From Gracilaria domingensis (lineage: Eukaryota > Rhodophyta > Florideophyceae > Gracilariales > Gracilariaceae): 64,000 bases of DNA. The translations under genes and the position numbers were made by a program. Within the stretch, counting starts at the first letter, position 1. Each line of letters opens with the position of its first letter. Positions 12,426 to 43,322 of this stretch are shown here, in pieces. The notes under the pieces were generated by a model. The model worked only from the letters and a program-made list of their open reading frames with translations, was not told where the DNA came from and made no database searches. The stretch is from positions 1-64,000 of the forward strand of contig VCMS01000296.1 of NCBI GenBank assembly GCA_022539475.1, given 5' to 3'.

Positions 12426-12493
12426 TCCGTTCTTGTATCGTCCAGAGCGAGCGTATTGTTGATATACACCTTTCACTGCAATAGCTGTTCAAC

Positions 12494-20458: not shown

Positions 20459-20505
20459 CGGGGGTGTGTCTGGGAAGGACGGGTTTGGCGTTACTGAAGT
20501 TATCG

Positions 20506-21627: not shown

Positions 21628-21794
21628 TTATGTGAGCGCGAAAGAAGAGACAGAGAGGTGGCGCTTAAATAGTGGAAGGTGCGGAGGTATACAGTAGATG
21701 TTTTGGCGGGAAATGGGATGAGGGAAACAGGGACAATCATGGTGCTGGATATAGCCTGGAGAAGGGGGTAGAATTGAAGGTGGAGGGGGTCGCA

Positions 21795-22970: not shown

Positions 22971-23154
22971 TACAAAAGACTGCTATCGATGGCGCTCTAA
23001 AGTATTGCTGCGCCAGGGGCCGCCGCCGTGCCATCGGCAGTGCATCCAGTTTATCAGTCATCGTCGTGGAACACGGCGCAGAATGCATAGAGTCCCCCAC
23101 ATCATTGACACTCGACACCATCCTCTTCTCTAGGGTAGGTGTGGTGCGCGTGGA

Positions 23155-23880: not shown

Positions 23881-26800
23881 ATGAAGCCAACTCGTGTTCG
23901 AAAGCGTACGCAAAGCGTGACTCCTCGCTGTCGGAGGAGCACTCGATCATTGCAAGGTGGAATGCGGGTTTCTCTGCAGATGGATATTGAGAATGAAGGA
24001 AAGGTGATAGTCGGGGAAGCTTTGTTGCATGGAATTGAAAGTGTTCTACGCCGCGAGTTGAACCGGAAGCAATTGGACCCAGGTCTTGTGGTGGTTCATA
24101 ATATTCTCATCAGTCGAAGCGGTCAGACGTTCTACCCTTACAGTGCGGAGGGACTGGATCTTCTACATTACATCCAGGATCTCCAGACGGCCGCTCCTTG
24201 GGATGAGAAAATGATGGAACCGGTGGCAGTCAGCATTTCGGCGTCGAAGCGACGAACGATGAGCGCTATGAGTGAGGTGATGACGCCGACAAGCCGCACG
24301 GAGCCAATTCGAAGTTCATCAACACCGAGAGGTAGCGCATCAGTAGCACCTCCGCGAGCCAGTCCGTCGTCTGTTACGAAGCGAACTATGGAGACGAGAT
24401 CATCCCCAGCTACGAAGCGGACAGACCAAACAAAGTCTACCTCCGCTACGAAGCCCACTGCGTTGAAAAGGGCATCTCCTGCGATCAATCAGACCGTCGA
24501 CACAAGGGGATCTTCTGCGTCGAAACAGACGGTTCAACACGGGACGGCTGTGCAAGAAGAGGAAGATGAGATCATAAGAGGTCCCCTTCGAGACGCGGAT
24601 GCGCAATCCGCACAAGGAGCTGGTCCATCTGTACCGCAGACTGCACCACAAACTGCGGAGCAGCAGGACGATGACGTTGTGCTTCTGTCCGCAAGAATGG
24701 CACTTTCAAGTGTTTCTGGCGAGCCTTCTGGAACACAAGGGACACCTACTCGGAGCAAGACGTACAGACGAATTCGTCAGAAGGTCCCAAAGGGGACATC
24801 AATCACTACGAGATGGTTGTTGTTACTGTTGATATCACTCTCGTGGACGCTCCGCCCAATTTACTCCGTGGAGTAAGTAAACGCCACGTCGAAACCCTTG
24901 TGAAGAGTATGGAAGAGCGGGGGATATTGCAGTCGATGGGTTCCCTAGTGGTGGCCTTACAAGATGCTGCTACGGGAGAGTGGGATGCTGACAAGGGACG
25001 CCTAACGAAGAAGTGCTTCATTGTAGATGGTTTGCATCGTCTGAGAGCTATACAATATTTGGCAGCGACTGGTGCACCGAATTAGATTTATTAGCCAAGT
25101 TTTGGCGTTGCAATCTGCTGATACGAAGAGATGGGAGGCCCACTGGGATGAAGGAATAGTTATGTGTTGCTTCGTACCTCAATGAGTTGACGAGTATCAT
25201 TCGAAGGATGATGTTTGCAGACAAGATACACTCTATAGTTAGTGTGGTCGCCATTCTAATTGAAGATGTTGAGGGGGTGACGCCGGCAGACGTGGATCCT
25301 GCAGAAGTGACAGAAGTGTTGCAGGAGAGCCAACTGATTGGGACTGTGCAAGAGCGTCAGTATCTGAGATATGTCAATGTCGCCCTGCAACTCATGTCTC
25401 GTGAGGGAATGCTGGCCCATTTCGAGGATATATGTGAGACTGTGAGTGACATAGGTCTCACACATCTGTCCCATACTCCGCTATATGTTTTGGATGCCGA
25501 GGAGTTTTCCTTCATTCTTGATAGTCTTCAGATGTTTCTATTGAAGGGCAAATCGACGAAACGAAGACAAAGCAATGGAAAAGCTTTGAGGAGGTTCGAG
25601 GTTTCTTTTATGATAGAGCAGTGTCTTTGTTCCGCCCGGCTCGAGCAGTGAGGAATGAACTGAACGAGGAAGAGTCGATGGAAGTGTTCCTGAAACGCGA
25701 AATCAGTCTTTCTGCTCCATCGAATGAAGATGACATTGAAGACCCAGACAACAACGCAGCTGTGTATCAGTTTCTTTTGGGACAAGTTGTGAACTTCAAT
25801 ACATTGCGGCGTGTTCAGAGCAGGACGAACTCAATTAGAACTGCCACGACTTCCGTTTAGAATCGATTACGGACGATGCTCAAGGTAAATCCGCCCCCGC
25901 CCCACCAGTGAAGTAGTCCGTGACGAAGAGGAGGACTCCCGCTGCTGCTGCTGCATCATCTGCCAGTGAAGAAGGGGAGCCGCGAAGAAGTGCACGAGAA
26001 CGGGCGCAGGTGAGTTATAAGGAAATTGAGCACGGCCGAAATCGAGGTGCCATAGAAGTTCTGGATAGCTCTGAAGAGGAACAGCGGACTCCGCCGAGAA
26101 AGAAACAGAGAAAGACTTTCACACAACAGATGAGATCTACTCTGAACAGCATGACACCGGATGATCTGAAGTCTCAACTAAATGAACATGTGCTGAGAGG
26201 AAGGTCGATGAAGGTTCAGTTCGTGGCATTGGGAGAGGGAGCGAATGCAGAGAACGCAGGCAGTTCTGCATTTGGGAATGACGAAGAGCTTCTTGCTGTG
26301 ACAGTTCCACTGGTTGTCACCGTCGAGAAAGATGCTGCGCTATACGATCAGCAAGAGACAGGTGGGGGGTCATTTGATGACGAGTTACCTACAGCTCTCC
26401 TGGAATCTGAGGAGCACGGACTTGTTCGAGGTGACCCATATGATGGCCCACCGAACCCATCATGGTGCGGGTATGCCAGGCTGAGACCGCAGGAATGGCA
26501 AGGGAAGAACGTAATTGAGCACAAGGACCCCTGGCTCAGAGTCATTCACTTGCCGAAGGGACATAGGTCGGAGCTGCTAAGTGTCTCGAATCTCAGAGAT
26601 GTACACCATCTTGTCTTTTGGCACGCTGCAAGGGCTGAACATCGCCTACGGGCGGAGACATTTGGTATGCAGTATCCTCGTACTCGACCGACAGGTATGG
26701 ATGATGAAGAGGTGCTGTGGGTTGCTGCGAAGGAGCATGACGAATTTGGGCAAATGTTCTTCGCCCGAATGCAAGCTGAGCTAAGGCAGAATGGATATTG

Positions 26801-27625
26801 CGTGCTTGATGGTTTTGCGACGGATAATGGTGTCCCTAAATGGGAGGAGTTGGAAGAAGTTCGGGAGTTCGGAGATGTGTCGGGGAAGTTGGTGGACTTC
26901 TTCGAGAATGAGTATGGAGCGATGCCGGATATACGGAAAGGAGAGGAACAGAAGTCGTTTGTTCAAATAATCAACGATGATAAAGGATGGAAGGACGGTA
27001 GCGATGGACCATTTGAGGGGAGAGTGATGTCGACACGTTGGGGTACGGTGGAGAAGCCGGAGGATAATGAGGAGCTCAGGTGGGTTGTAAGGTCGCGTGC
27101 TTTACTTGATGTTCGAATGGGTACAATTGCTGCGGCTTTGGGACTATGGGACAATGAAAGGGAAGCTGTGAAGATGTACACTCCGAAAACCGGTGGTCGA
27201 TTTCTGGGGACGACGAGAAAGTGCAAGCGCCAGACGCTGCACACCGAGTTCAGTGGTATGGTTACGAAGGAAACAATGAATACTGGCAACCCCGGATACT
27301 TTGTAATGGCCTATGGGAAAGAGGGCTTTCCTCTCTGGGTGAGCGCTGGAAGCCATCAACTGGTGGGGATGAACAACCAACAGTTGCGAGTGATGTCGGA
27401 GGTGTATCCAGCGAAGAAGATAATCATCCCACCGTACTCTGTATTCGTGGGCCGTGGTGATGTGACACATGCTGGAGCAAGTGGGAAGGACAAGGTGGAT
27501 AGGCCCGAGTCTATGGATTTGCTGGTTAGATACCACATGTACATGGTACCAGAGGGCTACGCACTACCTGATGCTGTTCATCGGGTACGAGATTTCCGAC
27601 CCACGTTTGTCAATGGTGACGAGGA
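23881..27625 (+). pseudogene. ParB-dioxygenase fusion, copy B, broken
   Basis: It follows copy A (12494-16411) from MKPTRVRKR to FVNGDEE and then passes directly into the inverted copy C. A frameshift near 24.79 kb hits the start of the ParB domain. Stops are seen near 25.08 kb and 25.86 kb, and another frameshift lies near 25.56 kb. The dioxygenase part from 25920 on is open. Its first metal motif reads HTEF instead of HTDF. The acidic tail of copy A is missing because of the junction. The ParB region can no longer be read through. Confidence 0.9.
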
Positions 27626-30600
27626 AAGCCCTCTTTCCCAGAGGCCATTACAAAGTATCCGGGGTTGCCAGTATTCATTGTTTCCTTCGTAACCATACCA
27701 CTGAACTCGGTGTGCAGCGTCTGGCGCTTGCACTTTCTCGTCGTCCCCAGAAATCGACCACCAGTTTTCGGAGTGTACATCTTCACAGCTTCCCTTTCAT
27801 TGTCCCATAGTCCCAAAGCCGCAGCAATTGTACCCATTCGAACATCAAGTAAAGCACGCGACCTTACAAACCACCTGAGCTCCTCATTATCCTCCGGCTT
27901 CTCCACCGTACCCCAACGTGTCGACATCACTCTCCCCTCAAATGGTCCATCGCTACCGTCCTTCCATCCTTCATCATCGTTGATTATTTGAACAAACGAC
28001 TTCTGTTCCTCTCCTTTCCGTATATCCGGCATCGCTCCATACTCATTCTCGAAGAAGTCCACCAACTTCCCCGACACATCTCCGAACTCCCGAACTTCTT
28101 CCAACTCCTCCCATTTAGGGACACCATTATCCGTCGCAAAGCCATCAAGCACGCAATATCCATTCTGCCTTAGCTCAGCTTGCATTCGGGCGAAGAACAT
28201 TTGCCCAAATTCGTCATGCTCCTTCGCAGCAACCCACAGCACCTCTTCATCATCCATACCTGTCGGTCGAGTACGAGGATACTGCATACCAAATGTCTCC
28301 GCCCGTAGGCGATGTTCAGCCCTTGCAGCGTGCCAAAAGACAAGATGGTGTACATCTCTGAGATTCGAGACACTTAGCAGCTCCGACCTATGTCCCTTCG
28401 GCAAGTGAATGACTCTGAGCCAGGGGTCCTTGTGCTCAATTACGTTCTTCCCTTGCCATTCCTGCGGTCTCAGCCTGGCATACCCGCACCATGATGGGTT
28501 CGGTGGGCCATCATATGGGTCACCTCGAACAAGTCCGTGCTCTTCATATTCCGGAAGAGCTGTAGGTAACTCGTCATCAGATGACCCCCCACCTGTCTCT
28601 TGCTGATCGTCTGGCGCAGCATCTTTCTCGACGGTGACAACCCGTGGAACTGTCACAGAAAGAAGCTCATCGTCATCCACAAATGCAGAACTGCCTGCGT
28701 TCTCTGCATTCGCTCCCTCTCCCAATGCCACGAACTGAACCTTCATCGACCTTCCTCTCAGCACATGTTCATTTAGTTGAGACATCAGGTCATCCGGTGT
28801 CATGCTGTTCAGAGTAGATCTCATCTGTTGTGTGAAAGTCTTTCCCCGTTTTTTCCTCGGCGGAGCCCGCTGTTCTTCTTCAGAGCTATCCAGAACTTCT
28901 ATGGCACCTCGATTTCGGCCGTGCTCAATTTCCCTATAACTCACCTGCGCCCGTTCTCGTGCACTTCTTCGCGGCTCCCCTTCTTCACTGGCAGATGATG
29001 CAGCAGCAGCAGCGGGAGTCCTCCTCTTCGTCACGGACTGCTTCACTGGTGCGGGGGGCAGAATTACCTTGAGCATCGTCCGTAATCGATTCTGAACGGA
29101 AGTCGTGGCAGTTCTAATTGAGCTCGTCCTGCTCCGAACACGCGACAATGTGTTGAAGTTCACAACTTGTCCCAAAAGGAACTGATACACAGCTGCGTTG
29201 TTGTCTGGGTCTTCAACGTCATCTTCATTCGATGGAGCAGAAAGACTGACTTCTCGTTTCAGGAACACTTCCATGGACTCCTCCTCGTTCAGTTCATTCC
29301 TCACTGCTCTAGCCGCGCGGAACAGAGAGACTGCTCTATCATAAAAGAAACCTCGAACCTCCTCAAAGCTTTTCCATTGCTTTGTCTTCGTCGACTTGCC
29401 CTTCAATAGAAACATCTGAAGACAATCAAGAATGAAGGAAAACTCCTCGGCATCCAAAACATATAGCGGAGTATGGGACAGATGTGTGAGACCTATGTCA
29501 CTCACAGTCTCACATATATCCTCGAAATGGGCCAGCATTCCCTCACGAGACATGAGTTGCAGGGCGACATTGGCATATCTCAGGTACTGACGCTCTTGCA
29601 CAGTCCCAATCAGTTGGCTCTCCTTCAACACTTCTGTCACTTCTGCAGGATCCACGTCTGCCGGCGTCACCCCCTCAACATCTTCAATTAGAATGGCGAC
29701 CACACTAACTATAGAGTGTATCTTGTCTGCAAACATCATCCTTCGCATGGTACTCGTCCACTCATTGAGGTACGAGGCAACACATAACAATTCCTTCATC
29801 CCAATGGGCCTCCCATCTCTTCGTATCAGCAGATTGCAATGCCAAAACCTGGCTAATCGCTTCCAATTCGGTGCACCAGTCGCTGCCAAATATTGTACAG
29901 CTTTCAGACGATACAAACCATCTACAATGAAGCACTTCCTCGTTAGGCGTCCCTTGTCAGTATCCCTCTCTCCCGTAGTAGCATCTTGTAAGGCCACAAC
30001 TGGAGAACCCATCGACTGCAATATCCCCCGCTCCTCCATACTCTTCACAAGGGCTTCAACGTGGCGTCTACTTACTCCACGGAGTAAATTGGGCGGAGTG
30101 TCCACCAGAGTGATGTCAACAGTAACAACAACCATCCGGTAGTAATTGAGGTTCACCTTTGGTACCTTCTGACGAATTCGTCTGTACGTCTTGCTCCGAG
30201 TAGGTGTCCCTTGTGTTCCAGACCGCTCGCCAGAAACACTTGAACGTGCCATTCTTGCGGACAGAAACACAACGTCATCGTCCTGCTGCTCCGCAGTTTC
30301 TGGTGCAGTTTGGGGTACAGATGGACCAGCTCCTTGCGCGGATTGCGCATCCGCGTCTGGAAGGGGACCTTTCATGATCTTATCTTCCTCCTCTTGCACA
30401 GCCGTCCCGTGCTGAACCGTCTGTTTCGACGCAGAAGATCCCCTTGTGTCGACGGTCTGATTCATCGCAGGAGAAGCCCTTTTCGACGCAGTGGGCTTCG
30501 TAGCGGAGGTAGACTTTGTTTGACCTGTCCGCTTCGTAGCTGGAGATGCTCTCGTCTCCATAGACCGCTTCGTAACAGACGACGGACCTGCCCGCGGAGG

Positions 30601-31068
30601 TGGTACTGATGCGCTACCTCTCGGTGTTGATGAACTTCGAATTGGCTCCGTGCGGCTTGTCGGCGTCATCACCTCACTCATAGCGCTCACCGTTCCTCGC
30701 TTCGACGCCGGAATGCTGGCTGCCACCGGTTCCATCATTTTCTCATCCCAAGGAGCGGCCGTCCGGAGATCCTGGATATATTGTGGAAGATCCAGGCCCT
30801 CCGCCCGGTAAGGGTAGAACGTCTGACCGCTTCGACTGATGAGAATATTATGAACCACCACAAGACCTGGGTCCAATTGCTTCCCGTGCAACTCGCGGCG
30901 TAGAACACTTCCAATTCCATGCAACAACACTTCCCCGACTATCACCTTTCCTTCATCCTCAATATCCATCTGTAGAGAAACCCGCATTCCACCTTGCAAT
31001 AATCGAGTGCTCCGCCGAGTGCGAGGAGTCACGCTTTGCGTACGCTTTCGAACACGAGTTGGCTTCAT
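27610..31068 (-). CDS. ParB-dioxygenase fusion, copy C, C-terminus cut
   Basis: Open from MKPTRVRKR (ATG 31068) for about 1146 residues, nearly identical to copy A, until MASGKEGFP, where the tail-to-tail junction at about 27625 cuts it. ParB motif VDGLYRLKA has Tyr where copy A has His, so the G-x-HR motif reads G-x-YR here. The first metal motif is HTEF (Glu for Asp). The distal His, the 2OG-binding Arg and the acidic tail are lost, so the dioxygenase cannot fold normally. It is divergent from the MTase-SET at 32532. Confidence 0.85.
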   Translation of the reverse strand: MKPTRVRKRTQSVTPRTRRSTRLLQGGMRVSLQMDIEDEGKVIVGEVLLHGIGSVLRRELHGKQLDPGLVVVHNILISRSGQTFYPYRAEGLDLPQYIQDLRTAAPWDEKMMEPVAASIPASKRGTVSAMSEVMTPTSRTEPIRSSSTPRGSASVPPPRAGPSSVTKRSMETRASPATKRTGQTKSTSATKPTASKRASPAMNQTVDTRGSSASKQTVQHGTAVQEEEDKIMKGPLPDADAQSAQGAGPSVPQTAPETAEQQDDDVVFLSARMARSSVSGERSGTQGTPTRSKTYRRIRQKVPKVNLNYYRMVVVTVDITLVDTPPNLLRGVSRRHVEALVKSMEERGILQSMGSPVVALQDATTGERDTDKGRLTRKCFIVDGLYRLKAVQYLAATGAPNWKRLARFWHCNLLIRRDGRPIGMKELLCVASYLNEWTSTMRRMMFADKIHSIVSVVAILIEDVEGVTPADVDPAEVTEVLKESQLIGTVQERQYLRYANVALQLMSREGMLAHFEDICETVSDIGLTHLSHTPLYVLDAEEFSFILDCLQMFLLKGKSTKTKQWKSFEEVRGFFYDRAVSLFRAARAVRNELNEEESMEVFLKREVSLSAPSNEDDVEDPDNNAAVYQFLLGQVVNFNTLSRVRSRTSSIRTATTSVQNRLRTMLKVILPPAPVKQSVTKRRTPAAAAASSASEEGEPRRSARERAQVSYREIEHGRNRGAIEVLDSSEEEQRAPPRKKRGKTFTQQMRSTLNSMTPDDLMSQLNEHVLRGRSMKVQFVALGEGANAENAGSSAFVDDDELLSVTVPRVVTVEKDAAPDDQQETGGGSSDDELPTALPEYEEHGLVRGDPYDGPPNPSWCGYARLRPQEWQGKNVIEHKDPWLRVIHLPKGHRSELLSVSNLRDVHHLVFWHAARAEHRLRAETFGMQYPRTRPTGMDDEEVLWVAAKEHDEFGQMFFARMQAELRQNGYCVLDGFATDNGVPKWEELEEVREFGDVSGKLVDFFENEYGAMPDIRKGEEQKSFVQIINDDEGWKDGSDGPFEGRVMSTRWGTVEKPEDNEELRWFVRSRALLDVRMGTIAAALGLWDNEREAVKMYTPKTGGRFLGTTRKCKRQTLHTEFSGMVTKETMNTGNPGYFVMASGKEGFPRHH

Positions 31069-32531
31069 GTTGAACAGCTATTGCAGTGAAAGGTGTATAT
31101 CAACAATACGCTCGCTCTGGACGATACAACAACGGAGGCGAGCCTTTAAATGGCGACTTACGCTGGGCACCCCCGCTTTCGGCAGCTCCTCCCAGCGCAC
31201 TGCCAGTCTCGTCCGTGTCCTGTCCGTGGCCGCTCGCACACTGATTGTACGCTTTAGAGTCGTGGAGTTCGCGCAATGATGACTCACGCGAGCAATGGTC
31301 GCGTTCTCAATCATGCTCTTCAAATGCTTTGCATAGTAGTCAAGAGTACACTCATTCACTTCCATGTACAGCCTACTCCCGCAAATACACGTGGACAGCG
31401 GCGCCAACGTACCGGCGGCCGGGTGTAGCGAAATCACTGCGCGGCGGCGTGTTTTGCAAGGTCCCGGGAAGGCACCGGAATGTGGCCAGAACGTGCCCGC
31501 GGGCGGGGGGGGTCGGTCGTGTTAGGGTAGGTACCCTAACACGACCGGACCCCCCCGCCCGCGGGCATAAAATCGCACATTTTTCAAAAAATCGCCCAAA
31601 ACGTGCCCGCGGCCGGGGGGGGGGCCGGTCGTGTTAGGGTACCTACCCTAACACGACCGACCCCCCCCCCGCCGCGGGCACGTTCTGGCCACATTCTGGC
31701 ACCCTCCGGAGACCTCCCAAAACACTCCTCCCGGCACTTCCTGTACCCACTCGTCACCTTAGTGCACCATCCCGTCATCTTCACCCTCCAGACACTCCCT
31801 AATTTCCGGGATGGTGCACTGAGGTGACCATCCCGTCTTCTCCACCCTCCAGACACTCCCTAATTTCCGGGATGGTGCACTGAGGTGACGCAGTGGGTAC
31901 AGGAAGTGCCGGGAGGAGTGTTTTGGGAGGTCTCCGGAGGGTGTCAAAAAATCGTCCAAAACGTGCCCGCGGGCGGGGGGGTCGGTCTGTTAGGGTAGCT
32001 ACCCTAACACGACTGGACCCCCCCGCCCGCGGGCACGTTTTGGACGATTTTTTGAAAAATGTGCGATTTTATGCCCGCGGGCGGGGGGGTCCGGTCGTGT
32101 TAGGGTACTACCCTAACACGACCGACCCCCCCGCCCGCGGGCACGTTCTGGCACATTCCGGCGCCTTCCGGAGACCTCCCAAAACACTCCTCCCGGCACT
32201 TCCGGCAGTGATTTCGCTGCACACGCCGTGCACATATATCAAACTAGAGAAAACTAGCGCTTCACACCCACTTGATCCGCGACTTTTAGCACAATACGGG
32301 ACCGTTGCAATAGCTCCGAATCGCGACGTGGCCGACACGCGACGCTATCGCTCCGACAGCGACGCTATCGCTCCGACACGCGACGCTATCGCTCCGACAC
32401 GCGACGCTATCGCTCCGAGCGGACACGGACACGGACGAGACTGGCAGTGCGCTGGGAGGAGCTGCCGAAAGCGGGGGTGCCCAGCGTAAGTCGCCATTTA
32501 AAGGCTCGCCTCCGTTGTTTGCGCTGAAGCG
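31069..32531. promoter_or_regulatory. Divergent control region, right copy
   Basis: Mirror arrangement of 11019-12493. The promoter module for ParB lies at about 31140-31225 (minus strand). Palindromes are at 31514-31547, 31626-31659, 31984-32013 (weaker) and 32092-32124, with the spacer inverted repeat in between. The 21-bp minisatellite (four units, GACACGCGACGCTATCGCTCC) is at 32331-32425 and the promoter module for MTase-SET at about 32425-32510, with TTTAAA at 32497-32502, 30 bases before the ATG at 32532. Having two separate copies with the same plan shows the plan is a fixed part of the element. Confidence 0.85.
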
Positions 32532-35500
32532 ATGGATTCCACCGATGTTGGAGAGGAGATACATCCTATCGACATGAGTGCTCCGCCTCCGGCGTTCCAT
32601 GCATATGTCAGACTTTTCTTGGTTCTTCGCGATGCTTTGGCAAACAGCGATGGAGGCCCTGATCGGCCACGGGACGTGGGGTTTAGAGGGTTAATAGAGT
32701 TCTGCGCCGAGAACTATAAGGATATTCCGGAGGCAAGGAAGATGTTTGAGGAGGCCACTAACTCCAAGAACCTGCAGAACTTGACACTGCAACAGCTGCG
32801 AAAGAGTGTTGTGAATAACAAACCTGTGGAACAACGATATCTTGTAACGAAGCTTCTTGACAAGAAGGACGGGGATGAGGACCAGAGACTCCGCGATTTT
32901 TTCCTTCTCTCTATGGATATGGGTATATACCTACCGGTGCGATGCCTGGTTGGTTATTTCATGACCAGGAGAAAGCAGGTTCTGAAGACGACAGTGTTCA
33001 TCCCACCAACAGCTGTGAACCCATTTGAGGTCGTTATATACTTATCATACCTCGGCCACATAATGGGAGAGAACGACAACATCCGAATGATGAAGAAGAA
33101 ACAACCGAAAAAGAAACGAAAAGTGAACCATGCACCATCTGTGTACATACCCACTTTTACGTCGTTCTCCAAAGACAACTGTGATCGACTGGGATTCGCT
33201 ATCAGTGAGGTCGTATGGGCATGGAGTTGTTTTGCGGCTCATCTTGGATACACGAACGTTCAGCACATGGTGAAACCATACATTTACATGAATATGCAGA
33301 CGTTGAAGTATACAGCGCTAGAGACACGGGAGTCTGGTTATGCCCCGCCGAGCCAGAGTACTCGATTCAACACAAGGATGTGCCACAGAGCAGTACTAGT
33401 GGATCGGTGGAGACCTTGAGTGATGAATGCGATACAAACCTGCGAATACTGGCTAAGGAGTTTTTGACAGACCTCGAAACCATATGCACCCACGATAGCC
33501 TCTATAGCTTACGGGTTGATCAGATGAGGAACTGGATAGAGTTTTCGGAGATACGGATGGATACCGTATCTAGCTCTGACTCCGGTGAGTTGCCTGCTCG
33601 ATTTCAGAAGTTTTCGGAGTTGCTATGGAAACCGATACAGGATATGCGTCATGCGGCAGGGTTCCATGTCGGCATTCACGCGAAACCTGATATTGAACTG
33701 ACGAAAACCCCTAAAACTTCCGGTAATGCCGAACCTTCTTCGACCAAGTCTGCCCCACCCCCACCTCGTCGAGAGTATATGAACCTCGTGAGCTCCGATA
33801 GCGACGAGTTCGAGAAGCCGGTGAATCTTGCGGAGCATGAATCTCGGGTTGCCGGTTACAACATCCAAAAGACTGGTATTGAGCCGCCCATGAAGGGGAT
33901 ATCCAGTCTCCTTCGAATGAATATGGACAAGGTGTGGAAGGGGATGAGAAAGTCACACTTTGTAGCGTACAACTGTGACATGAAGGACCTGAGGCACACA
34001 CACGAAACGTTTGTGAATCAGAGTGAGATTTTATGGGGTGAGGCACAGCTTGTCCTAACAGACCCTCCCTTTAACACTCGAAGGAAGAGGAACAAACGGA
34101 ATAGTGGTCACGATGTCTTCAGTGAGGAAGACATGATCCGTACGGCTGACTTAATAAGTTCCGCGCTTCGGTCAGGTGGGCACTTCATTATATTCTGTGC
34201 CATGGCACAGTTTCATGTGTGGCACAGGATACTTTCGGAAACGGCGAGTACGAAAGATGAAGCTGGAAGCGAAGGTAAACCAGAACTCATGCCTTCGTTT
34301 AAAGTGGATGCGAATCCACTGGTGTTCATCCGGGATCGCAGTAATGTTGGAGGGAATCCACGGAAGTTTGGGATACAGCCCGTAACGGAGTACGCCGTTC
34401 ATGGGGTGAAGCGTGGATTGCGACCATCGGAGGAAGCCAGTCTTACTCCATTTGAGGAGAACAATTTCATTCCTTCCACTTTCCCGGCTAACAGGAATGT
34501 AATTGACCGGGTGCCCAAACCGAGAGCGGGGGAGTGGTTGACATGGAAGGTACATGAGCCAGGTAGTTCAGTACCAGGTGGGCAGTACATAAGACCGGAG
34601 CAGAAGTCGAGGGAGTTGATGAAGGAGTTGATATGTCGCTTCACAAGACCGGGTGATCTTGTCATGGACATGTTCGCGGGAACTTTTTCTACGGGTATGG
34701 CGTGCCTATCGCTGACAAAGCATAGGAAGTTCTTGGGGTGCGAGAAGAATAGGCCATGTTTCAGCCATGCGAAGCACCATCTAACGACTCTTATGGCCGA
34801 AGTTATTCGCGGGGGGAAGAATGACATCCTGGTTGAACAGGAGGTGGTGGATGCGGCTTCAACGACCTATGAACGGGTTCCACATCGGGACCGAGGTCGG
34901 CTTGAATGGGAGGCTCCATTTGGTTACCCCCAGTACCAAGTGATGCCTGGACATATTACTCAGTTCCTAGGAAGATACTGGAAGGACTGGGACTTTGTCG
35001 AGAAGTGTGGACAGCGTACTGTAGATCTTTGGGAGGGGAAGTACCGAGGAGCTCTGAATCTTATGGATATGCATATGCTGTTGACTGTTGAAGCCAATCG
35101 CTATCGCTTACATATAGCATCTTCTAAGATTCGACATCCCCGTGCTGGTATGGGGGTGTTCACGGAACATAAGATATTGGCTGGGGAAACTATCTGTCAT
35201 TTCTATGGAACTTTGGTATACACGGATCTGACGAACCGGAAGGAAAGACACTTAACGTATGGAAGTGGCTGTCTCGGAGCAACTCCAGTGCGGTACAAGT
35301 TGTTTTCTATGATGGTCACTGTGACTGGTACGGAGTTTCTGCACCTGAGGAACAGACCAGGACAGGCTCAGGATAGAAAGGAGAGCGAAGTCTACATTGT
35401 CCCGGCGCCTTTTTGTATCGGGGGCTACATTAACGACGCCGGATATCATGCCGGGGATCCCGATTTATCGGAGCCCCGGTCAAACAGGACTCGAAGTGCC

Positions 35501-35668
35501 AATGTGCAGGTGGTGGAAGCGAAGTCCGTGATACAGTTTAAGTCAGACCTTTCTAACTATGCTCTACTTCGTTGTAGAGCAGTAAGAGATATTGAGAGGG
35601 GCGAAGAGTTGTATTTCAACTACGGAGAGCAGTACGCCTGGGACTGGGCTCTGACATTGGAGCAATAG
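32532..35668 (+). pseudogene. DNA methyltransferase-SET fusion, right copy
   Basis: Same protein as 7881-11018. A one-base loss in an A run near 33.37 kb shifts the frame after residue ~280 (STRFNT), and the second frame is then open to the stop at 35668. All catalytic parts lie in the second frame: DPPF near 34.06 kb, DMFAGTFSTG near 34.67 kb, and the SET region near 35.13-35.66 kb. The positions that are stops in the left copy read Lys (PKPRAG) and Glu (KSRELMK) here. The NLS PKKKRKV is in the first frame. An ATG at 33215 in the second frame could give a shorter protein with the enzyme domains but without the NLS. Confidence 0.85.
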
Positions 35669-35918
35669 ATGAGTTCAGTACCAAATAGAATGTAAATATG
35701 CTTGTGAGTGTTGCAGCTGCCTGCAATACGCGTTGTTGTACATGTACACTGGAGCTCTTCATCTGTAACGGCGATATTTGCGACCCATTGGGCACCTCAA
35801 ATTCCTAAAAAGCAGGAACTGCGGAGTCTCCCGGAATATCTGAACCATGCACCCCCCCCCCCACCCCCTCCCCCCCTCCCCAACAATTTCGTTTCATTAC
35901 CCTGTTTATCTCCACAAC
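35669..35918. promoter_or_regulatory. Upstream region of the coiled-coil gene with C tract
   Basis: This 250-base gap between the MTase-SET stop and the next ATG holds a C-rich tract at 35852-35882 (broken only by single A and T bases), about 37 bases before the ATG. The tract is in the same place in all three copies. No TATA box is obvious. Confidence 0.6.
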
Positions 35919-38315
35919 ATGGGTATAACGCCGAGAAAGCGAAATAGTACGCAGCGGAACAAGAGTGGACAGAAGAAGAGAAGAGCATCGGATGATACGA
36001 ATCAGGCTACAAGCACCGCACTTCCTAAACGGAAGTCGTCCTCGACGAAGGAGAGAGTCAGTGGGCGTCCTTCTACAGGACTCTCTCGCCCATCTCGCAG
36101 CGGAGCGTCTTCCGGGATTGCGTCAAGAATTCGTGGATCAGCGAACGATGTCGTGCCCTCAACTGCCGATAATGCAAATCGTGCATCTGTCTCTGCTCCT
36201 CAAGAAGATGAGGTAACTCGGCCCAGCGGGTCAGGACAGGAGGGCATGACAACTGGAACCGAAGAGGTTCGTATGACACCAAAACCTTCATGTCCCCGGC
36301 CGATATCGAAGACCGGAGCTACTGGGGCGCGGGTTACGCCGCCCAGTGGATCTGGACAACAAGGGACAATGACGAGAAGTCGTGAGAGTCCTAGTATATT
36401 AAGATCGTCACGTCCATCCCTGTCTTCTAGAACTGGGGCCGCTATGAATCGTATCATGCCTCGCAATGGGTCCGGACAAGGGAGAAAGACAATAAGAAAT
36501 CGAGAGACAACTGATAGACGAGTTACTTTTCGACCTTCCCCTCTTTCCAGAACGGGGGCCGTTGCAGCTCGTACGAGGCCCAATTCATCTGATATACCAT
36601 GCCATGGAGGAGGACAGACACGGGAGTTGGAGCTCGGAGCCGTGCCAAGGGTGGACACAGAATGCCTGCAGCCTCTCGTGTCTAAGGCTATGGCACATGA
36701 AGATAGTTCCGATAACGAAATAACACCGAATACTGCGGCATTACCGGGGCCTGTCGCCGAAGAAGATAGGGAAATAACGGAAGATATCCACACTGGTGTG
36801 AATTCAAGCTCTATGAACAGACCTGATCTTTTAAATGAACTGAATTGCTTGAAAGAAAAGGTTAAGACGCTACAAGAGGACTTGATGGTTCGGGGAATTC
36901 TAGTGAAGGTCGCCCAAGAGCAGAGTACGGCTTTGAAAAAGAGGCTTGAAGAGAAGGATCTAATCATTGAAGGGCTAAGAGGGGCACTGAAACAGGAGGG
37001 AGATAGGAGTACACGTGCTGGTGAACCTGGGCAGACAGGTCGAAAGAAGCATAAAATTGAGGTGTGCGACGAGTTTCGAGGGGTTGCTCGAGCAGTGTAT
37101 CACAACATGCTGACGTGGACAAGCAGAGAAACAAGTGAGCTATGGCTCGAAGGTGAGTCGCTCACCCGAAATTGGGGTAACCGTGCCGAGAAGGTGGAAG
37201 ACGCAACTGAGAGTGGGGAAGGCCTTATTGAGCCGGAGGAAGGTGGTTCATACATGGTTCCTAAAAACCCCGTGGAGCTCTTGGGCAGTTTTGGCATGTT
37301 CACACCGTCGATAGAGGGGGGGCCAGATGCGTTGCTGAAGAAATTGGTTGAAAGCGAGTTGAAGGAGTTGAGCTGGGAAGGTATTAGAAAAGCACCTCTT
37401 ACCGACAGGTGTATACTGGAACTTTGTGCAGATATGTGCCTTAGGCAGAGAATGCGGCATACCATGAGTGACGTCGTGGGTGTTCGGAAGAGAAACACGA
37501 GGGATAAACTATTTCTGCTCCTGGGGTACGATCTGATTTGGAGAAGAACAAAGCCGGTAGAAGAGAATGCTGACGAACTCACAATGCAGCTGAAGGAAGC
37601 GCAGGAGAACATTCTGCGTCTTGACGAAAATGGTGTACCGAACACTTCATGGTGGAGAAAAGCCCCATTTGTTCGTCTAAAGTACTCCAATGCGGACAAT
37701 GTCGAGGATATGCCGACGGAAGATCAAGACTCGTTGTTCCAAAACCGTGTCGGGGTACAAGTACTGAAGGCGTTTATTGGGTATGATGTGGAAGACAAGG
37801 ATACGGGCACCTTTTTAGATGGCACAATACTGTTGCTCGCACGTTTGGACGCTTGGGTGTTGACAGTTGTCAGCCTTCTAAGTACGGATGTGTCAAGGGG
37901 TGGCCAGAGACAGAAACTGTTTACAAAGAGGTTTGCCCAACTGCTACCTCTGTGTTTAAAGAATGTTCTGGGGGATGTTAGGCAACGTGTCTTGAGGACG
38001 AATTCCAGCGATTTTCATAATTTTGGAACGACAACGGAAGATTGGACTAAGGTTCTTGGTAATGACATGAGAGAGGCTACATTTGGATATCGAATGCCGT
38101 CGAACGGAAGACTTTACCTCACTGTGAAAGAACAATTTTTTATTGACAGTGTGAGCCGAAGATTGGGGTCTATTACCGATTGTTTCGTTGGTGAATGCGA
38201 GGAAGGGGATATGGAGTTCAAGGAAATGGACATGAACGGTTTCGGAAGTAGCACAGGATCACAACAAAAGGCACCACAAGGTGAACATGTAGAGGATGGA
38301 GCCCTTAATGTTTAA
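35919..38315 (+). CDS. Coiled-coil element protein, intact
   Basis: 798 residues from MGITPRKRN; this ATG is preferred because the 62599 copy has no in-frame extension there and the upstream start sits in the C tract. Residues ~1-290 are basic, rich in Ser, Thr, Arg and Pro, with several SGSGQ/NGSGQ-type repeats. Residues ~298-365 are a strong coiled coil (LLNELNCLKEKVKTLQEDL). About 430 C-terminal residues look globular (VPKNPVELLGSFGMF, RLDAWVLTVVSLL), and I recognise no family. It follows MTase-SET in the same direction and overlaps the end of the transposase gene by 11 bases on the opposite strand. It may be a structural or DNA-binding partner of the element proteins. Confidence 0.8.
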   Translation: MGITPRKRNSTQRNKSGQKKRRASDDTNQATSTALPKRKSSSTKERVSGRPSTGLSRPSRSGASSGIASRIRGSANDVVPSTADNANRASVSAPQEDEVTRPSGSGQEGMTTGTEEVRMTPKPSCPRPISKTGATGARVTPPSGSGQQGTMTRSRESPSILRSSRPSLSSRTGAAMNRIMPRNGSGQGRKTIRNRETTDRRVTFRPSPLSRTGAVAARTRPNSSDIPCHGGGQTRELELGAVPRVDTECLQPLVSKAMAHEDSSDNEITPNTAALPGPVAEEDREITEDIHTGVNSSSMNRPDLLNELNCLKEKVKTLQEDLMVRGILVKVAQEQSTALKKRLEEKDLIIEGLRGALKQEGDRSTRAGEPGQTGRKKHKIEVCDEFRGVARAVYHNMLTWTSRETSELWLEGESLTRNWGNRAEKVEDATESGEGLIEPEEGGSYMVPKNPVELLGSFGMFTPSIEGGPDALLKKLVESELKELSWEGIRKAPLTDRCILELCADMCLRQRMRHTMSDVVGVRKRNTRDKLFLLLGYDLIWRRTKPVEENADELTMQLKEAQENILRLDENGVPNTSWWRKAPFVRLKYSNADNVEDMPTEDQDSLFQNRVGVQVLKAFIGYDVEDKDTGTFLDGTILLLARLDAWVLTVVSLLSTDVSRGGQRQKLFTKRFAQLLPLCLKNVLGDVRQRVLRTNSSDFHNFGTTTEDWTKVLGNDMREATFGYRMPSNGRLYLTVKEQFFIDSVSRRLGSITDCFVGECEEGDMEFKEMDMNGFGSSTGSQQKAPQGEHVEDGALNV

Positions 38316-41300
38316 GGCTGTACAAGATCAACGTGCTCAGTTGGTCCTTCATCTGAATCATGATAGAATGATTGATGTAGAATCGGTGTTGAAACCATTG
38401 AAGTGGAGGACAAAAAGGTGGAGCAGGGTAGTTTGATCGAACAACATGGACAGTTCCCTGTAGTGCAGAAGCCGGAACCATCCCGTACCAAGGAGTTAAC
38501 TCTACGATAGTCTCCGCTTTGGAATGACGAGGGAACGGAACAGTGTGGTTCTTTTCATCGTTTGTAGCCCACCGTAAAGATATGCATTTCAATATGTGGT
38601 CGATGTTTGTTGCGGGGGGTAAAACCTCGAAATACCGGACGAATGCCACCTCTGGTGCGGTAAATGCAGAATCAAGGAGAGATATTCGAATCAGAGCGAC
38701 TACCTGGGCAACCCAAGTCTCTGAATCTTCTCCGCTTACCAATACAGTGGAAAACTTTGGCTTTCTACTGGGACCAAATGCTGGAGAAGCGAAGACACGT
38801 TGGATGATGGGGTATTTGGGTCGTCCCAGCTTAAGTGCCTTAGAAGACGAATCGAAGTGTTCAAGAGTCGGAACGAAACCGCCTTTCACGAGGGCCGAAT
38901 TCACGAGAGTTATCCTTGTCTTTTCTGGGAAGTATGTAATAGAGTGCTCATCCAGTGTTTCTTTCACGAGACCGAGGAAAGGAGGAAGGGCCTGTTCACC
39001 AATCTGATCAAGAATCGACCTTGTGTCCGTACTTGAGAACATCTCTCTAACAGCAGTCCATGTTTTTGAACTGGACATACTTGAAACACAATGTTGAAGA
39101 GCTCGTAAAGTGAAAGAACGCCCTCTCATTGCAAACCGAGGAAGCTGTGTGGAAGTTCCTGGTAAACCTGGATTACGCTGGTAAGGAGTATTGCCATTCC
39201 ATTGCTTTCTAACATGTCCGTGCTCAATGGAGCGAATAGTCTCCTCCACAGCCGTTGCTGTTCTTCTGGACGTCTTTTTGTAGTGTCTCTTAAATAGCAG
39301 GTGTGCATGTTCGTATATGCCTGCGTCGTAGTACTTGATACTTCCCAGACGGCGAATATCGTCCACGAGATGATCGAGAAGATGAAACTTCAGAGTTCCC
39401 AGTCTGGAGGGATGAAAATCCGCCAGAGTCTTTGTTGCGGAACGCTTGAAGGCTTCAATCTCCGAACTAAGACACAGGAGACAGCTTTCAGTCCAATACG
39501 GGTCACGATTGTATCTGAATAAGGTCGAGAGCAAGTCCGAATACTGAGAGAAAACGGTTGTGATTGGGGCAACGTCCTGTTCTCCAGAGCATATGTCAAA
39601 GAATGCTCCTATGAAGGGAAAGACCATGTCAAGTGCTTTGTAGTTTTTCGCCTCCAGCATTCCACGGAGACCGTCTTTCGTGAAAATACCATTCAAAGAT
39701 TTGCCTTTCTCCTGCGTGGAGAAATCGATATGTAAACATTTGGCAGGAGAATCGCGTTCTATGGCAGCTAGAATTGCGTTTGCATGGTTGAGGAGTTGGG
39801 TGCGTATCGTTCGAAATGAACGCGATGCAGATGTTCCTATTGTGATGCACAGGGTGTCTGACTGCAGTCTCTCGATTGTGGCCGTTTTTATCAACTTTGA
39901 GATGCCGAGATGCAAGTTGTGTAATGGCTCGAATGAAAACAGACTGTATGGAGACAATCCCGGGATCATTCCAAGGCTTATGGAAATTTCAACGAACGAA
40001 GGAATGAGAGATATGGAATTTGAACGCATCAGAGTATCCGCTTGAGATATCCTCTCCCTCGCACGACGTGGACGTCTTTCCGCCTCCTCTTTTTGTGCAT
40101 GTTGCAAGATAGCTGTGTATGTCTTTCGGATGCTTTTCGTGTGCTTTTGAGAACGTCCGTTGAATGAGGTGGGAAGAGGACTGCATAAAGATGAGCGAGG
40201 GGCTTTGCATCTATGACACGGGCTTTCCGTTTTGGTCCCATGAAGAATGGACAGAATGTCCTTAGCTTCAGGAATATCCGCACAATAACTTGCAAGCAGA
40301 GGATGGCACACTCGACTTAGTTTGTCTTCGCCGATGAACTGAAAACCTTTCTGCGTGAGATTTAGAATGGGCTCCAGGACTTGACGAAGAGATTCTTGAA
40401 GGATTTGCATCCTGGACTCGCGTAGAGACTTGCTAGAAACGAATGGCATTGCGTCTGCTTCAGATGCGGAAACCTCGATCAGTGTGGTAGGGAAGTATGC
40501 CACTACTGTGAGGTCATCACGGATACACTTACGGCGAAGCTCGTCGGAGAAGTTGAGAAATATGAGGTGAAGAGGATAGGCGGTAACCGATGTTTGCTTT
40601 AGAGTTGTTGAAGACTTATCGGTGTATACCTGCAGAAGACCTACGAAAGATTCACTGTAACTTATTTCTTGGGAGTATCACAGTATTCTACTATCCAAAG
40701 AGCCCATGACCATTTCCTTAAGTTTTGAGGTGGCGTCTCTTGCGAGAGAGCCGGACATGGGGTGAGATACTTTCGTGGAGTGGGTCTGAGGTATAGGGTG
40801 GAAGAATGTGTTTTCGTTGTTAGCCAACTGGAGCTGTTTCACAAGTGTCTGAACGGGGTCTCTCGTGTAGAGGGTGGCGCTGAACTTACATCCTTCTGGC
40901 GAGACAGTTCTTCGATTGAAACCGTCCTTTGAGGCGTATCGTTCGAAAATGGCGTTCTTCAGTTCTGTACAGCGCTTGGAACTTGTTATGGTCTCGTTGA
41001 ATCGCTTTTGCGAGAATCGCGGGTCCCGAAGTAGCCCAATTAGCTCGTCCGCCACACGATGACAAAGGTCGGAAGCTACTGAAGCCAGACAAACCGTGAG
41101 ATAATCCATATGCAAATCACCAAGGGCCTCCTCAGAAGGCACTGGGCGGGAACTGCTTCCGTGTTCTCGCTCTAATGACGCGGGACCCGGGGAAGGAGAA
41201 ACACAATGCGAAGTGTCCGGAATGAGAGGGGCGCACGGAGTGGGGTCGACGATGTCCTCGGACACTGGAGGCTCGGGAAGGCGACAAGGGGCAGTGACCG

Positions 41301-41490
41301 TTTCGGAAGATGCAGGCGCGGACGCGGAAAGCTTGAGACGCTTGCTTCTCCGAATGGCCCGGCTATTGTCGTCTTCCAGCGCTGCTTTCAGACGAAACGG
41401 GCAATGGTTGACATGCTGTTGAAGAGATAAGACTCCTCGGCGAGTAACGAAGGGGCACCCACGCTTCTTATGTGTACAGTAGTAGACCAT
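38305..41490 (-). pseudogene. Plavaka-type DDE transposase, left arm
   Basis: 1061 codons from ATG 41490 (MVYYCTHKKRGC), interrupted once by TGA at 40678-40680 where the other copy has Trp. The N-terminus is a C2HC/C2H2-like zinc finger (C-x6-C ... H-x3-C). The first catalytic Asp is in YTDKSST (~residue 291), then AYFPTTL, the CHRC Cys pair, FEPLHNLHLG, and FHLLDHLVDDIRRLG followed by YEHAHLLFKRHYKK, which holds the catalytic Glu (~727). This is the layout of Plavaka transposases, which cut and paste DNA. The middle position, usually Asp before xxLH, is Glu here. It is convergent with the coiled-coil gene. Confidence 0.85.
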
Positions 41491-41855
41491 GGGAAGAAGA
41501 AATGAACGAGAAACGACGACAAAGACTGCAAGGGAAGGGCGTCCGAAGGGAGAAGGAGGTCGAGCGACAGTCAATATCGACGTGTTGCTCAGAACGGAGA
41601 ATATATTTTGAGTTTAAATCACGTGCTTTCGTTCAAAAAGGAACGTAGGTACACTTCGACCTCAACACAAGGGTGTACTTCTCGTATTATCTACCACTGG
41701 TTATAAACCTGTGGTTTCCCAACGTTGTACGCTGTACACTTGTCCAATCTCGCACAGAAAAATAAATCTCTTCCCTCCGCCGCCGCCCCCGCCCGTCCGA
41801 CGTCCGATCTTTTGTTACCGTCGTGATCCGTGCCATCCTCGCGTTCTACTCCGCT

Positions 41856-41919
41856 CCGTCGTACGTTTTTCCGCGCTCGCACTCGCTACGAAGTGCGAGG
41901 GCGGAAAAAAGTACGACGG
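41856..41919. repeat. Hairpin upstream of the transposase
   Basis: A stem of about 28 bases (GTCGTACGTTTTTCCGCGCT against GGGCGGAAAAAAGTACGAC, with a few mismatches) and a loop CGCTACGA. The same hairpin is at 56600-56663 in the other arm. It lies about 370 bases before the transposase ATG and may mark the subterminal region of the element. Confidence 0.75.
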
Positions 41920-42179
41920 ATTACGAAGTAGCGTGCTCAGAATGGATTCCATTAAGCGGACATGAAGCGTACCTCATTCTCTTTCTCCGCCCTCGTCGGA
42001 CGCCTCCATAAAGCGGACAGCATCCGTATCTCACGGATGTATTCCGTTCAGTCTTTCCGTGCAGTCTTTTCGTACGTGCTTCCATTTCCTTCTACGTATC
42101 TTTGTTCTAAACTAACCAATCCTCACCACGTCTCTTCGCGCTCTGCGACATGTAAACGGCAGGAAAAAGGCTTTGGGTT

Positions 42180-42702
42180 ACTTTTGCGAGTTACTAGGTC
42201 CCTCGACTTTTCTAGCGCAACGTTTCTGTTTTGGTTTATCAATGGTACGTTCTATCGCATTTCAACTGTATCCAACGGAGCATTGACTAACTTATGGATA
42301 CTTTCTGCTTGCGTATACAGGAAAACGACCAATTTCATTTCGTCTCTCAAGATCGATCTCTGGCTGTTCGGGATAGGCGATTCTGGTACTTGGTTGGGAC
42401 ATAGGCTGCTCTTTCGTTTATCGCATCTTGAGGTATGTTTGCTGCATGGGCATTCTTGGTGTCCTTTGTTGTGAGTTCTCGCTTCGACACCTTTCGCGCT
42501 TTACGATGATGGTGGGCTGGTAATCTAACCGATCCCTTTCCTTCTTCTTTTTCATTTTGCGAGTTACTAGGTCCCTCGACTTTTCTAGCGCAACGTTTCT
42601 GTTTTGCTTTATCAATGATACGTTCCATCGCATTTCAAATGTAACCAACGGATCATTGACTAACTTCTGGATACTTTCTGCTTGCGTATACAGGTAAATG
42701 AC
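42180..42702. repeat. Direct duplication of ~145 bp
   Basis: About 42185-42330 and 42552-42700 share ACTAGGTCCCTCGACTTTTC, GCGCAACGTTTCTGTTTTG and GGATACTTTCTGCTTGCG with about 10% difference. In gene orientation each unit begins just after CTGTATACGCAAGCAG, which looks like a 3' splice site, so these may be duplicated exons. The right arm carries the same pair. Confidence 0.75.
42347..42628 (-). CDS. Small basic protein, left arm
   Basis: 93 residues from an ATG (MERIIDKAKQKRCARK), very rich in Lys, Arg and His (PAHHHRKARKVSKREL). Its start lies in one unit of the 145-bp duplication. The right arm encodes the same protein at 55891-56172 with one change (Ile4 to Thr), but the arms are so alike that this is weak evidence of selection. 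It is on the transposase strand, about 0.86 kb upstream, and could be an accessory DNA-binding protein or an N-terminal exon. No family was recognised. Confidence 0.4.
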   Translation of the reverse strand: MERIIDKAKQKRCARKVEGPSNSQNEKEEGKGSVRLPAHHHRKARKVSKRELTTKDTKNAHAANIPQDAINERAAYVPTKYQNRLSRTARDRS

Positions 42703-42740
42703 TTTTGATGCGGACGTAGCTCACGAGTTGCAGGTGCAGG

Positions 42741-42891
42741 TTCCTCAAGTAGGGAACCATGCATCTGGGCATGGTTCCCTACATGAGGAACGGAGAGGAT
42801 GAGGCGCTTCGCGCCTCATCCTCTCGGAGTGCGTATTTGTTCTACCGATACAGCCGATGGTGGACGTGCAGTCTGCGGCATCTGCCGCAGA
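42741..42891. repeat. Three subterminal hairpins, left arm
   Basis: Hairpin A, 42741-42790: stem of ~24 bases with one mismatch, GTAGGGAACCATGC against GCATGGTTCCCTAC at its core. Hairpin B, 42793-42825: perfect 15-base stem GAGAGGATGAGGCGC, loop TTC. Hairpin C, 42872-42891: TCTGCGGCA and its inverse with a TC centre. All three recur at 55627-55780. Such arrays are typical binding or fold-back sites near CACTA-like element ends. Confidence 0.85.
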
Positions 42892-43322
42892 TTGCGCCTA
42901 CACCCGCTCGATCATGGGGATATGGTACATGTAATATAGCGAAGTAGTGGTTAGCAAAAGCGGTCGATAGAAGAATAGATACGAATAAAACGGTATGATT
43001 TCATAATGGGCATCATCTGTACTAGCACTAGTATTCCATGCGTTGCAGGGTATCATTCCGCAGAAGGTATCGTGTAATGTGCACCTTAATGGAAACTGAA
43101 CCTAGACTTCGCGAAATACAGTTCAGGTAGCCCTCGACTAAAGAACTAGCACGAGTGGAAAACCCACCAGTATTTACTGCACAGCGATTCTGGACGACCC
43201 AAGCAATTATCTGCAAATTTTGAAATAATTGATCTCGATATTTTTTCAAAAAATTTACTGGACGACCCTTGCCAATTTCTGGACGACCCTCGCCAAAAAC
43301 TAGCATCTGCAAGAGACAGACG

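Follow-up and report, generated by a model that had tools for sequence, protein, structure and literature searches.

We describe here a giant transposon of the Plavaka class, real, old and abundant, that carries an unusual pair of epigenetic fusion genes. One encodes a predicted DNA methyltransferase joined to a SET domain (MTase-SET), and the other a ParB-like protein with a probable dioxygenase in its C-terminal part (ParB-dioxygenase). The element lies in a 64-kb stretch of DNA (positions 1-64000 of its contig, hereafter the window) from a genome assembly of 77.9 Mb in 680 contigs. Judged from the DNA alone, blocks in the window belong to a ~22.9-kb cut-and-paste transposon of a Gracilaria-type red alga.

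Blocks of one element in the window

As a preliminary description of this DNA had noted, three blocks keep the same gene order (A, 6546-22970; C, 27621-43322; D, 55196 to beyond 64000), and in copies C and D a transposase gene lies tail to tail with a gene for a coiled-coil protein. The blocks are 98-99% alike along stretches of up to 9.4 kb, far beyond chance. The assignment to Plavaka, also made there, was confirmed by common ends and by the transposase domain PF18759 in copies C and D (E = 2.8e-10 and 7.1e-19). At least 123 places in the genome were scored for PF18759, every one of them above the cut-off.

The right terminus is common to four elements (copies C and D and two others) with unrelated flanks, and its sequence, CGTCTGTCTCTTGCAGATGC, was found within the window at three or fewer mismatches only at 43322 and 55196. 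For the left terminus, CGTCTGTGTTCTGCAAAG in copy A, 40 of 646 candidate places were scored; one was the window itself, and the other 39 end no more than seven bases from the position corresponding to 22970. A degenerate pattern for both ends (CGTCTGT...) gave 518 + 497 = 1,015 matches in the genome versus 2 in a reversed control. By such sequence matches the family is abundant, with hundreds of copies, mostly shortened. The span first proposed for the element, 27610..43322, was correct at its right end, but the left boundary is a break at 27621, and the true left end is of the type seen at 22970 in copy A; copy C is thus the right two thirds of a ~22.9-kb element. Assembled from copy A in its orientation and then copy C, the order from left to right end is second coiled-coil protein, epimerase, dehydrogenase-like protein, HAD-IIB hydrolase, degenerate HAD-like protein, ParB-dioxygenase, control region, MTase-SET, first coiled-coil protein and transposase. 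The features of copies C, A and D that bear on the fusion genes are as follows (ORF, open reading frame; aa, amino acids).

27621..31068, minus strand: copy C ParB-dioxygenase gene, truncated at 27621, without the second catalytic His and Arg
31069..32531, no strand: copy C control region between the divergent genes, with long palindromes around GTGTTAGGGTnnnnACCCTAACAC at 31519-31542, 31631-31654 and 31987-32010
32532..35668, plus strand: copy C predicted N4/N6 DNA methyltransferase fused to SET, with a frameshift between 33215 and 33419
35847..38315, plus strand: copy C coiled-coil protein, no Pfam match
38305..41574, minus strand: copy C Plavaka transposase, interrupted (ORFs 38305-40503 and 40678-41574)
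43303..43322, minus strand: copy C right terminal inverted repeat, read inward as CGTCTGTCTCTTGCAGATGC, element end at 43322
6546..7697, minus strand: copy A coiled-coil gene, interrupted at 6546 by the insertion of another element (left end, 6545)
7881..11018, minus strand: copy A MTase-SET gene, two stops
11019..12493, no strand: copy A control region, palindromes at 11433, 11543, 11909 and 12019
12494..16411, plus strand: copy A ParB-dioxygenase gene, uninterrupted 1305-aa frame
22951..22970, minus strand: copy A left terminal inverted repeat, read inward as CGTCTGTGTTCTGCAAAG, element end at 22970
55196..55215, plus strand: copy D right terminal inverted repeat
56945..60214, plus strand: copy D Plavaka transposase (ORFs 56945-59206 and 59270-60214)
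60204..62664, minus strand: copy D coiled-coil gene, split into several frames
62848..64000, minus strand: copy D MTase-SET gene, continuing beyond the window

The gene set recurs across the genome and in a second subfamily

The preliminary description had expected the four genes to be linked outside the window, and their order was indeed found at many loci genome-wide. Linkage was counted for the best 55 of 1,006 MTase candidates, 55 of 907 coiled-coil candidates and 36 of 1,399 ParB candidates, with two short second rows (C146 and C34) left out, and for a transposase pool of 168 places, some listed twice (120 of 123 plus 48 of 60, with 12 left out as already present), such that the counts are lower bounds. 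A listed coiled-coil gene was located 182-195 bp downstream of the MTase gene in at least 15 of the 55 MTase copies, and a listed ParB gene was divergently upstream in at least 10. For the coiled-coil copies, a listed transposase gene was convergently downstream in at least 18 of 55. Every linked case was oriented as in the window, and chance gene order was ruled out by three wrong-side controls, each at 0/55. At nine loci chosen for the presence of MTase and coiled-coil genes, ParB DNA was on the expected side in all nine and transposase DNA on the other side in eight; at the lone exception, C359, another element cuts in. Five of six other high-scoring transposase copies run on into the coiled-coil gene, while the sixth ends with the transposase.

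The extra genes lie inside the transposon. A 20.1-kb element (C8:278212-298361) flanked by the target-site duplication (TSD) AC matched two 200-base probes, one for the dioxygenase core (98.5%) and one for the MTase core (99%), indicating that both genes are within one bounded unit. Moreover, elements with and without the extra genes have the same ends, so that the transposase does not have ends of its own that exclude them, a concern raised in the preliminary description.

We scanned for a second subfamily at 129 of the 150 listed MTase places, leaving out the last 21, which are short partial matches. A transposase was listed within 9 kb downstream at 31 of the 129, always convergent, and upstream at three. 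By profile span, 13 of these 31 represent another MTase class, with the convergent transposase at 5.5-5.9 kb in 12 and at 8.0 kb in one, and most of the 13 adjoin transposases with higher Plavaka-model scores than those of the window. In the one member compared, the C12 locus, the transposase is 48% identical to that of the window. There the MTase frame runs on into a SET domain (42% identical over 155 columns) that, on a partial fragment, scored 19.9 bits, below the PF00856 cut-off of 22.4. A match to the ParB gene was detected divergently upstream at the predicted place (a 1-kb piece, E = 1.9e-21 in a two-sequence search). This match spans the ParB part only, and the IDGAHR motif is in a different frame from the match, which indicates a frameshift or an intron there. 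The occurrence of transposase, MTase-SET and ParB genes together in a subfamily this distant indicates that the gene set is old.

Two fusion proteins encoded by divergent genes

The window MTase-SET protein has an MTase domain (PF01555, E = 2.5e-15) and a SET domain (PF00856, E = 1.7e-7; 32.1 bits versus a cut-off of 22.4) in one frame. The fusion reported in the preliminary description is therefore upheld, although the gene of copy C, for which it was described, is split by the frameshift; some other copies have a single frame of ~1,045-1,055 aa. In the MTase part, a DPP[FY] motif stands ahead of the S-adenosylmethionine-binding FxGT motif, with the D, P and P and the F, G and T invariant in 13 sequences. 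These features, PF01555 with DPP[YF] before FxGT, are those of beta-class N4-cytosine/N6-adenine (N4C/N6A) methyltransferases, and relatives in PDB detected by profile include DpnA, CcrM, MboIIA and RsrI. The enzyme is predicted to be an amino-methyltransferase of N4C or N6A. The SET part keeps its GxG, ND and NYG-type motifs.

For the ParB part of the second protein, we obtained weak matches to PHROG ParB models (6.9e-4, 0.0097, 0.017 and 0.28) and no match to ParB in Pfam, NCBIfam or PDB profiles. A D-G-x-H-R motif is nonetheless invariant in three sequences, the window protein and two distant relatives. The C-terminal part is a probable 2-oxoglutarate/Fe dioxygenase on the strength of an HxD...H...R pattern, whose residues (H1119-x-D1121, H1195 and R1215 in the window protein) are also present unchanged in two relatives of 29-32% identity. 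Of the ParB-dioxygenase fusion in the preliminary description, the conserved motifs of both halves hold up, whereas profile matches are weak for ParB and lacking for the dioxygenase, and the gene of copy C is truncated; the break falls after HxD and before the second His and the Arg, leaving that copy without a complete oxygenase site.

Two Gracilaria domingensis proteins match the ParB-dioxygenase protein at 89 and 92% identity, over 79 and 78% of its length respectively, and relatives of MTase-SET include proteins of Chondrus crispus and Pyropia yezoensis. Given these closest named proteins, the host is a red alga at or near G. domingensis, and the fungal setting from which the preliminary description drew its comparison was rejected. 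Two IMG/VR scans with alignments of the two fusion proteins gave no confirmed relative, and a viral origin was set aside.

A candidate self-directed modification switch

The two genes diverge from a control region rich in palindromes. Palindromes with perfect or near-perfect arms in the window are 30-74 bases long. With up to two mismatches, 14 palindrome cores were found in the window and none in 100 shuffles, and exact cores numbered 1,343 genome-wide versus 0 in the control. Four stretches that were folded, all from copy C, form long hairpins (z -10.6 to -15.4), and by eye at least one palindrome was seen in 11 of 13 end pairs on contigs C2-C9, deletion derivatives included. The encoding of a ParB-type protein beside this palindrome array suggests a parS-like site. 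Many eukaryotes have TTAGGG as their telomere repeat. The palindrome cores (e.g. 31519-31542) contain TTAGGG and CCCTAA back to back.

We favor a reading in which the element encodes a self-directed N4C/N6A writer and a ParB-borne oxidiser that would act at its own palindromes and set the state of the promoter and transposase, and we give this reading somewhat less than an even chance. In this scheme, the control-region palindromes of the element itself would serve the ParB-like domain as a parS-like site. Element DNA or chromatin would be marked there by the MTase, with SET perhaps contributing, and the dioxygenase on the ParB protein would oxidise that mark or a neighbouring one. Together, these activities may then switch the divergent promoter and the transposase on or off. 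A more complete version, which we regard as unlikely, would be a full N4C/N6A switch in which ParB, on a self-encoded parS-like array, carries the oxidising eraser and the divergent MTase-SET writes both DNA and histone marks, in a host without a 5-methylcytosine (5mC) methyltransferase.

A related idea is that the dioxygenase is a TET-type eraser that removes 5mC set by the host, with MTase-SET riding along as a passenger. TET/JBP genes do ride Plavaka and other transposons in Agaricomycetes, where they are thought to counter silencing, according to the passages of PMC12730594 covered, and the conserved HxD...H...R pattern is present. However, no TET family profile matched, and a search of the assembly for C5-cytosine methyltransferases (PF00145) gave 0 candidates, with the limits that the assembly may be incomplete and that genes with introns were searched exon by exon; the PF00145 control was positive in 10 of 14 genomes, all prokaryotes. 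This makes 5mC erasure unlikely and counts against the shield from silencing, understood as TET-type action on 5mC, that the preliminary description had proposed. We also looked for a scar of CpG methylation in the coding stretches of 12 copies. C-to-T singletons per site were 0.094 at CpG, 0.117 at CC and 0.066-0.068 at CT and CA; they are commonest before C, show no excess at CpG, and the scar was rejected. We consider the TET-type reading highly improbable.

Another reading takes the element to carry a device acting on chromatin rather than on DNA: SET would methylate histones of the element, the MTase part would serve mainly to target SET, and the ParB protein would nucleate the complex. 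Here the SET score above the Pfam cut-off and the retained motifs are favorable, as is the carriage of SET genes by other transposons (HarbingerS and MuDR, in the passages of PMC12730594 covered). The precomputed Pfam assignments, by contrast, lack SET in four of 12 relatives having the MTase (P0007, P0014, P0016 and P0017); on scanning, SET was weak in P0007 (6.8e-4) and P0016 (0.1), and P0017 stops before SET. A histidine is expected in the NHxxPN motif of SET domains. In these proteins that position is D. The chromatin device is, in our view, very doubtful.

Selection, length variants and the case for passenger genes

Several observations weigh against the self-directed switch, and the first concerns selection on its writer. 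Across 12 copies, the ratio of nonsynonymous to synonymous substitution rates (dN/dS) for MTase-SET was 0.98, little sign of recent selection, from which it follows that most sampled copies are dead or that selection on the gene is weak. The corresponding values were 0.63 for the transposase, 0.74 for the coiled-coil gene and 0.70 for ParB, and 0.74 for the dioxygenase part in 7 copies.

A second group concerns the ParB-dioxygenase protein. Binding of its ParB part to the palindromes is a step that we infer, and the structure model of ParB is of low confidence (predicted local distance difference test score, pLDDT, 58). The dioxygenase part matched no Pfam, NCBIfam or PDB profile, TET/JBP families included. 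In the two annotated G. domingensis proteins the alignment stops at residue 1036 and resumes at 1223; the skipped segment, 1037-1222 (in the window 14393-16411 region), holds every supposed oxygenase residue and has GT and AG near its borders. Either an intron was wrongly predicted there or real splicing removes the core. Copy A has an open frame throughout the segment, and P0003 and P0004 show it conserved; both observations favor coding sequence and a wrongly predicted intron over real splicing. In the complete switch, regulation could even come from splicing itself, were the oxygenase core an optional intron. As the oxygenase core is the weakest step, it lowers our confidence in both the self-directed pair and the complete switch, and raises it in the passenger alternative below.

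The third group comes from movement. Among the first 100 listed end matches, 25 end pairs read by eye span ~6.4-22.9 kb; 23 of the 25 are below 22 kb, and a group of them clusters around 10.3 kb. Eight end pairs of 22.4-23 kb were found (C91, C137, C23, C5, C89, C34, C139 and C315), near full length by size, their gene content being seen in part. TSDs were sampled from 10 + 3 + 7 pairs, with C108, C71 and C164 left out (right ends outside the stretch). A matching 2-bp TSD was present in eight of nine elements below 22 kb and in none of the eight of 22.4-23 kb, so that intact movement of the complete form is a presumption. In C5 and C34 one of the two TSD bases agrees, and the right end of C315 has one changed base. 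Flank exchange through recombination between long copies is our guess for the cause of the difference.

In one 10.3-kb derivative that was followed, deletion has removed MTase-SET, the coiled-coil gene, the dioxygenase part and the final ~380 bases of the transposase gene, while the remainder of the transposase and four palindromes are retained. Since such derivatives spread after deletion, the lost genes are not needed in cis. We also considered whether the 10.3-kb class could be the ancestral transposon. Two 10.3-kb elements have common breakpoints inside HAD and ParB, and with breakpoints in the coding sequence of these genes, in the control region and in the transposase gene, the class is instead a deletion product.

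A further alternative denies the accessory genes any part in the life of the transposon, taking them as selfish cargo or as passengers in decay, so that the ends and the transposase alone would matter. It is consistent with the near-neutral dN/dS of MTase-SET, the stops in many copies, the prevalence of end pairs below 22 kb and the gene losses in the one that was followed. On the other side, MTase-SET and the ParB gene are kept in the same orientation in the subfamily with 48% transposase identity, and distant relatives retain the MTase and dioxygenase motifs without change. It would be surprising for passengers to stay in register for so long. We judge the passenger explanation to be rather unlikely, and retain the self-directed writer and oxidiser as the tentative reading.

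Left-arm cargo and other features of the window

Beyond the ParB-dioxygenase gene toward the left end are five further genes, for a ribulose-phosphate epimerase, two HAD-like proteins, a dehydrogenase-like protein and a coiled-coil protein. These genes in copy A, and fragment B, are as follows.

16676..17587, plus strand: copy A HAD-like protein, altered motif I
17647..18510, minus strand: copy A HAD-IIB type hydrolase, DVDGT motif
19138..20241, minus strand: copy A dehydrogenase-like protein, GxGxxG, one stop (open 367-aa frame in the L065 copy)
20446..21219, plus strand: copy A ribulose-phosphate 3-epimerase, full length
21672..22502, plus strand: copy A second coiled-coil-like protein (341 aa in the L065 copy)
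23152..27625, plus strand: fragment B (control region plus ParB-dioxygenase gene), in head-to-head arrangement with copy C

The epimerase matched PF00834 (E = 1.5e-61), with 1h1y as its best PDB match. Among the stretches fetched, C5 and two 10.3-kb elements lack ~460 bases of its first part. Genome-wide there are at least 150 matches, many of them confined to the second half of the profile; many look like element copies, among which the host's own gene was not singled out. Given the truncated genes and the half-profile matches, the full-length epimerase is apparently a minority form. The dehydrogenase-like protein has GxGxxG, no Pfam match and only a weak PDB match. The HAD-like protein at 16676-17587 has SVDET in place of DVDGT, next to an intact-looking HAD gene on the other strand, and is perhaps a pseudo-enzyme partner. 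In the complete switch considered above, the sugar-phosphate enzymes of this arm might even feed a hypermodified base.

The ParB-dioxygenase gene of copy C breaks off at 27621, where the copy meets fragment B (23152-27625) head to head. Between 27333 and 27625 the two fragments meet around a 287-base spacer with a 5-base overlap, and the junction looks like a fold-back or end-joining event. At the C359 locus, a near-perfect ~28-base inverted duplication of the 3´ end of the coiled-coil gene lies in the flank of the left terminus (C359:104568-104598; ~568-598 of L023), as if a hairpin had been resolved there. A 148-bp direct repeat near the right end of copy C (42182-42329 and 42555-42702, 373 bases apart) is mirrored in copy D at 55817 and 56190, and is a possible source of length differences among copies.

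Window positions 1-6545 belong to another Plavaka-type element (left end 6545) inserted in the coiled-coil gene of copy A. The DNA of its transposase is ~77-80% like that of copies C and D, ~3 kb of it is 96% like a 6.4-kb element on C6 (L067), and the 3-6 kb part reaches 70% GC. The DNA between copies C and D includes an AT-rich stretch of 35-37% GC, in which a 187-bp sequence is directly repeated (50111-50297 and 51484-51670). No RNA genes were found within the window.

Relation to known elements

The statement in the preliminary description that no such element had been described was too strong. Red algae have giant transposons with accessory genes, and red-algal transposons are cited as sources of ParB + N4/N6 MTase proteins, in the passages of PMC12477816 covered; the giant EnSpm elements of red algae are credited there to Petroll et al. 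2025. They resemble the present element in belonging to the EnSpm/Plavaka group of DNA transposons, in their great size and in having several accessory genes. Here ParB is joined to a probable dioxygenase and MTase to SET, in two divergent genes accompanied by metabolic cargo. The Ectocarpus element Sola1-1_Ec32 (21.5 kb), as presented in the same passages, is similar in having a 1104-aa ParB + N4C/N6A methyltransferase protein on the strand opposite the transposase. It differs in its transposase superfamily and in combining in one protein what is encoded by two divergent genes here.

Fungal TET-bearing Plavaka elements (Kojima 2025, PMC12730594) also unite a dioxygenase gene and a Plavaka transposase in one element, and PlavakaA has a 2-bp TSD, as do the shorter copies here. 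ParB is absent from the text of that paper, no transposon-borne DNA methyltransferase appears in the passages covered, and the element described here, in contrast to the fungal ones, gave no TET profile match. Its termini, CGTCTGT...ACAGACG, differ from the TGT..ACA of PlavakaA and the CATCA..TGATG of PlavakaB given by Kojima 2025, and represent either a third terminal type inside the Plavaka class or the mark of a sister group. Plavaka transposons, of the CMCT clade, are otherwise recognised by PF18759, by terminal inverted repeats with a TSD of 2-3 bp, and by C(2)C and H(3-4)H motifs between the second D and the last E; in the present family the inverted repeats are present, and among the elements sampled a 2-bp TSD was seen only below 22 kb. 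HarbingerS and MuDR elements resemble it in carrying a SET histone methyltransferase, but the citing sentence in PMC12730594 speaks of SET genes, not of a fusion to a DNA methyltransferase. In the giant Plavaka repeats of Amoebidium, a transposase likewise lies beside up to 50 kb of intron-poor repeat genes, although many genes there encode tyrosine recombinases (in the part of PMC11244446 covered).

No paper joining Plavaka with Rhodophyta was found in the literature searched. Petroll and colleagues are said to have named a giant Plavaka transposon lineage in their 2025 work on Bostrychia. The gene set described here was not found in the literature searched, the gene content of the elements of Petroll et al. 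2025 lying outside the comparison.

The conservation of the MTase-SET and ParB genes across subfamilies argues for old working parts rather than chance cargo. If the self-directed reading is true, a eukaryote would possess a natural pair of enzymes, one writing and one erasing amino-methyl marks on DNA, carried on a transposon of hundreds of copies, and this in a genome in which a search for the usual 5mC writer gave no candidate. The finding also bears on the growth of red-algal genomes through giant transposons.

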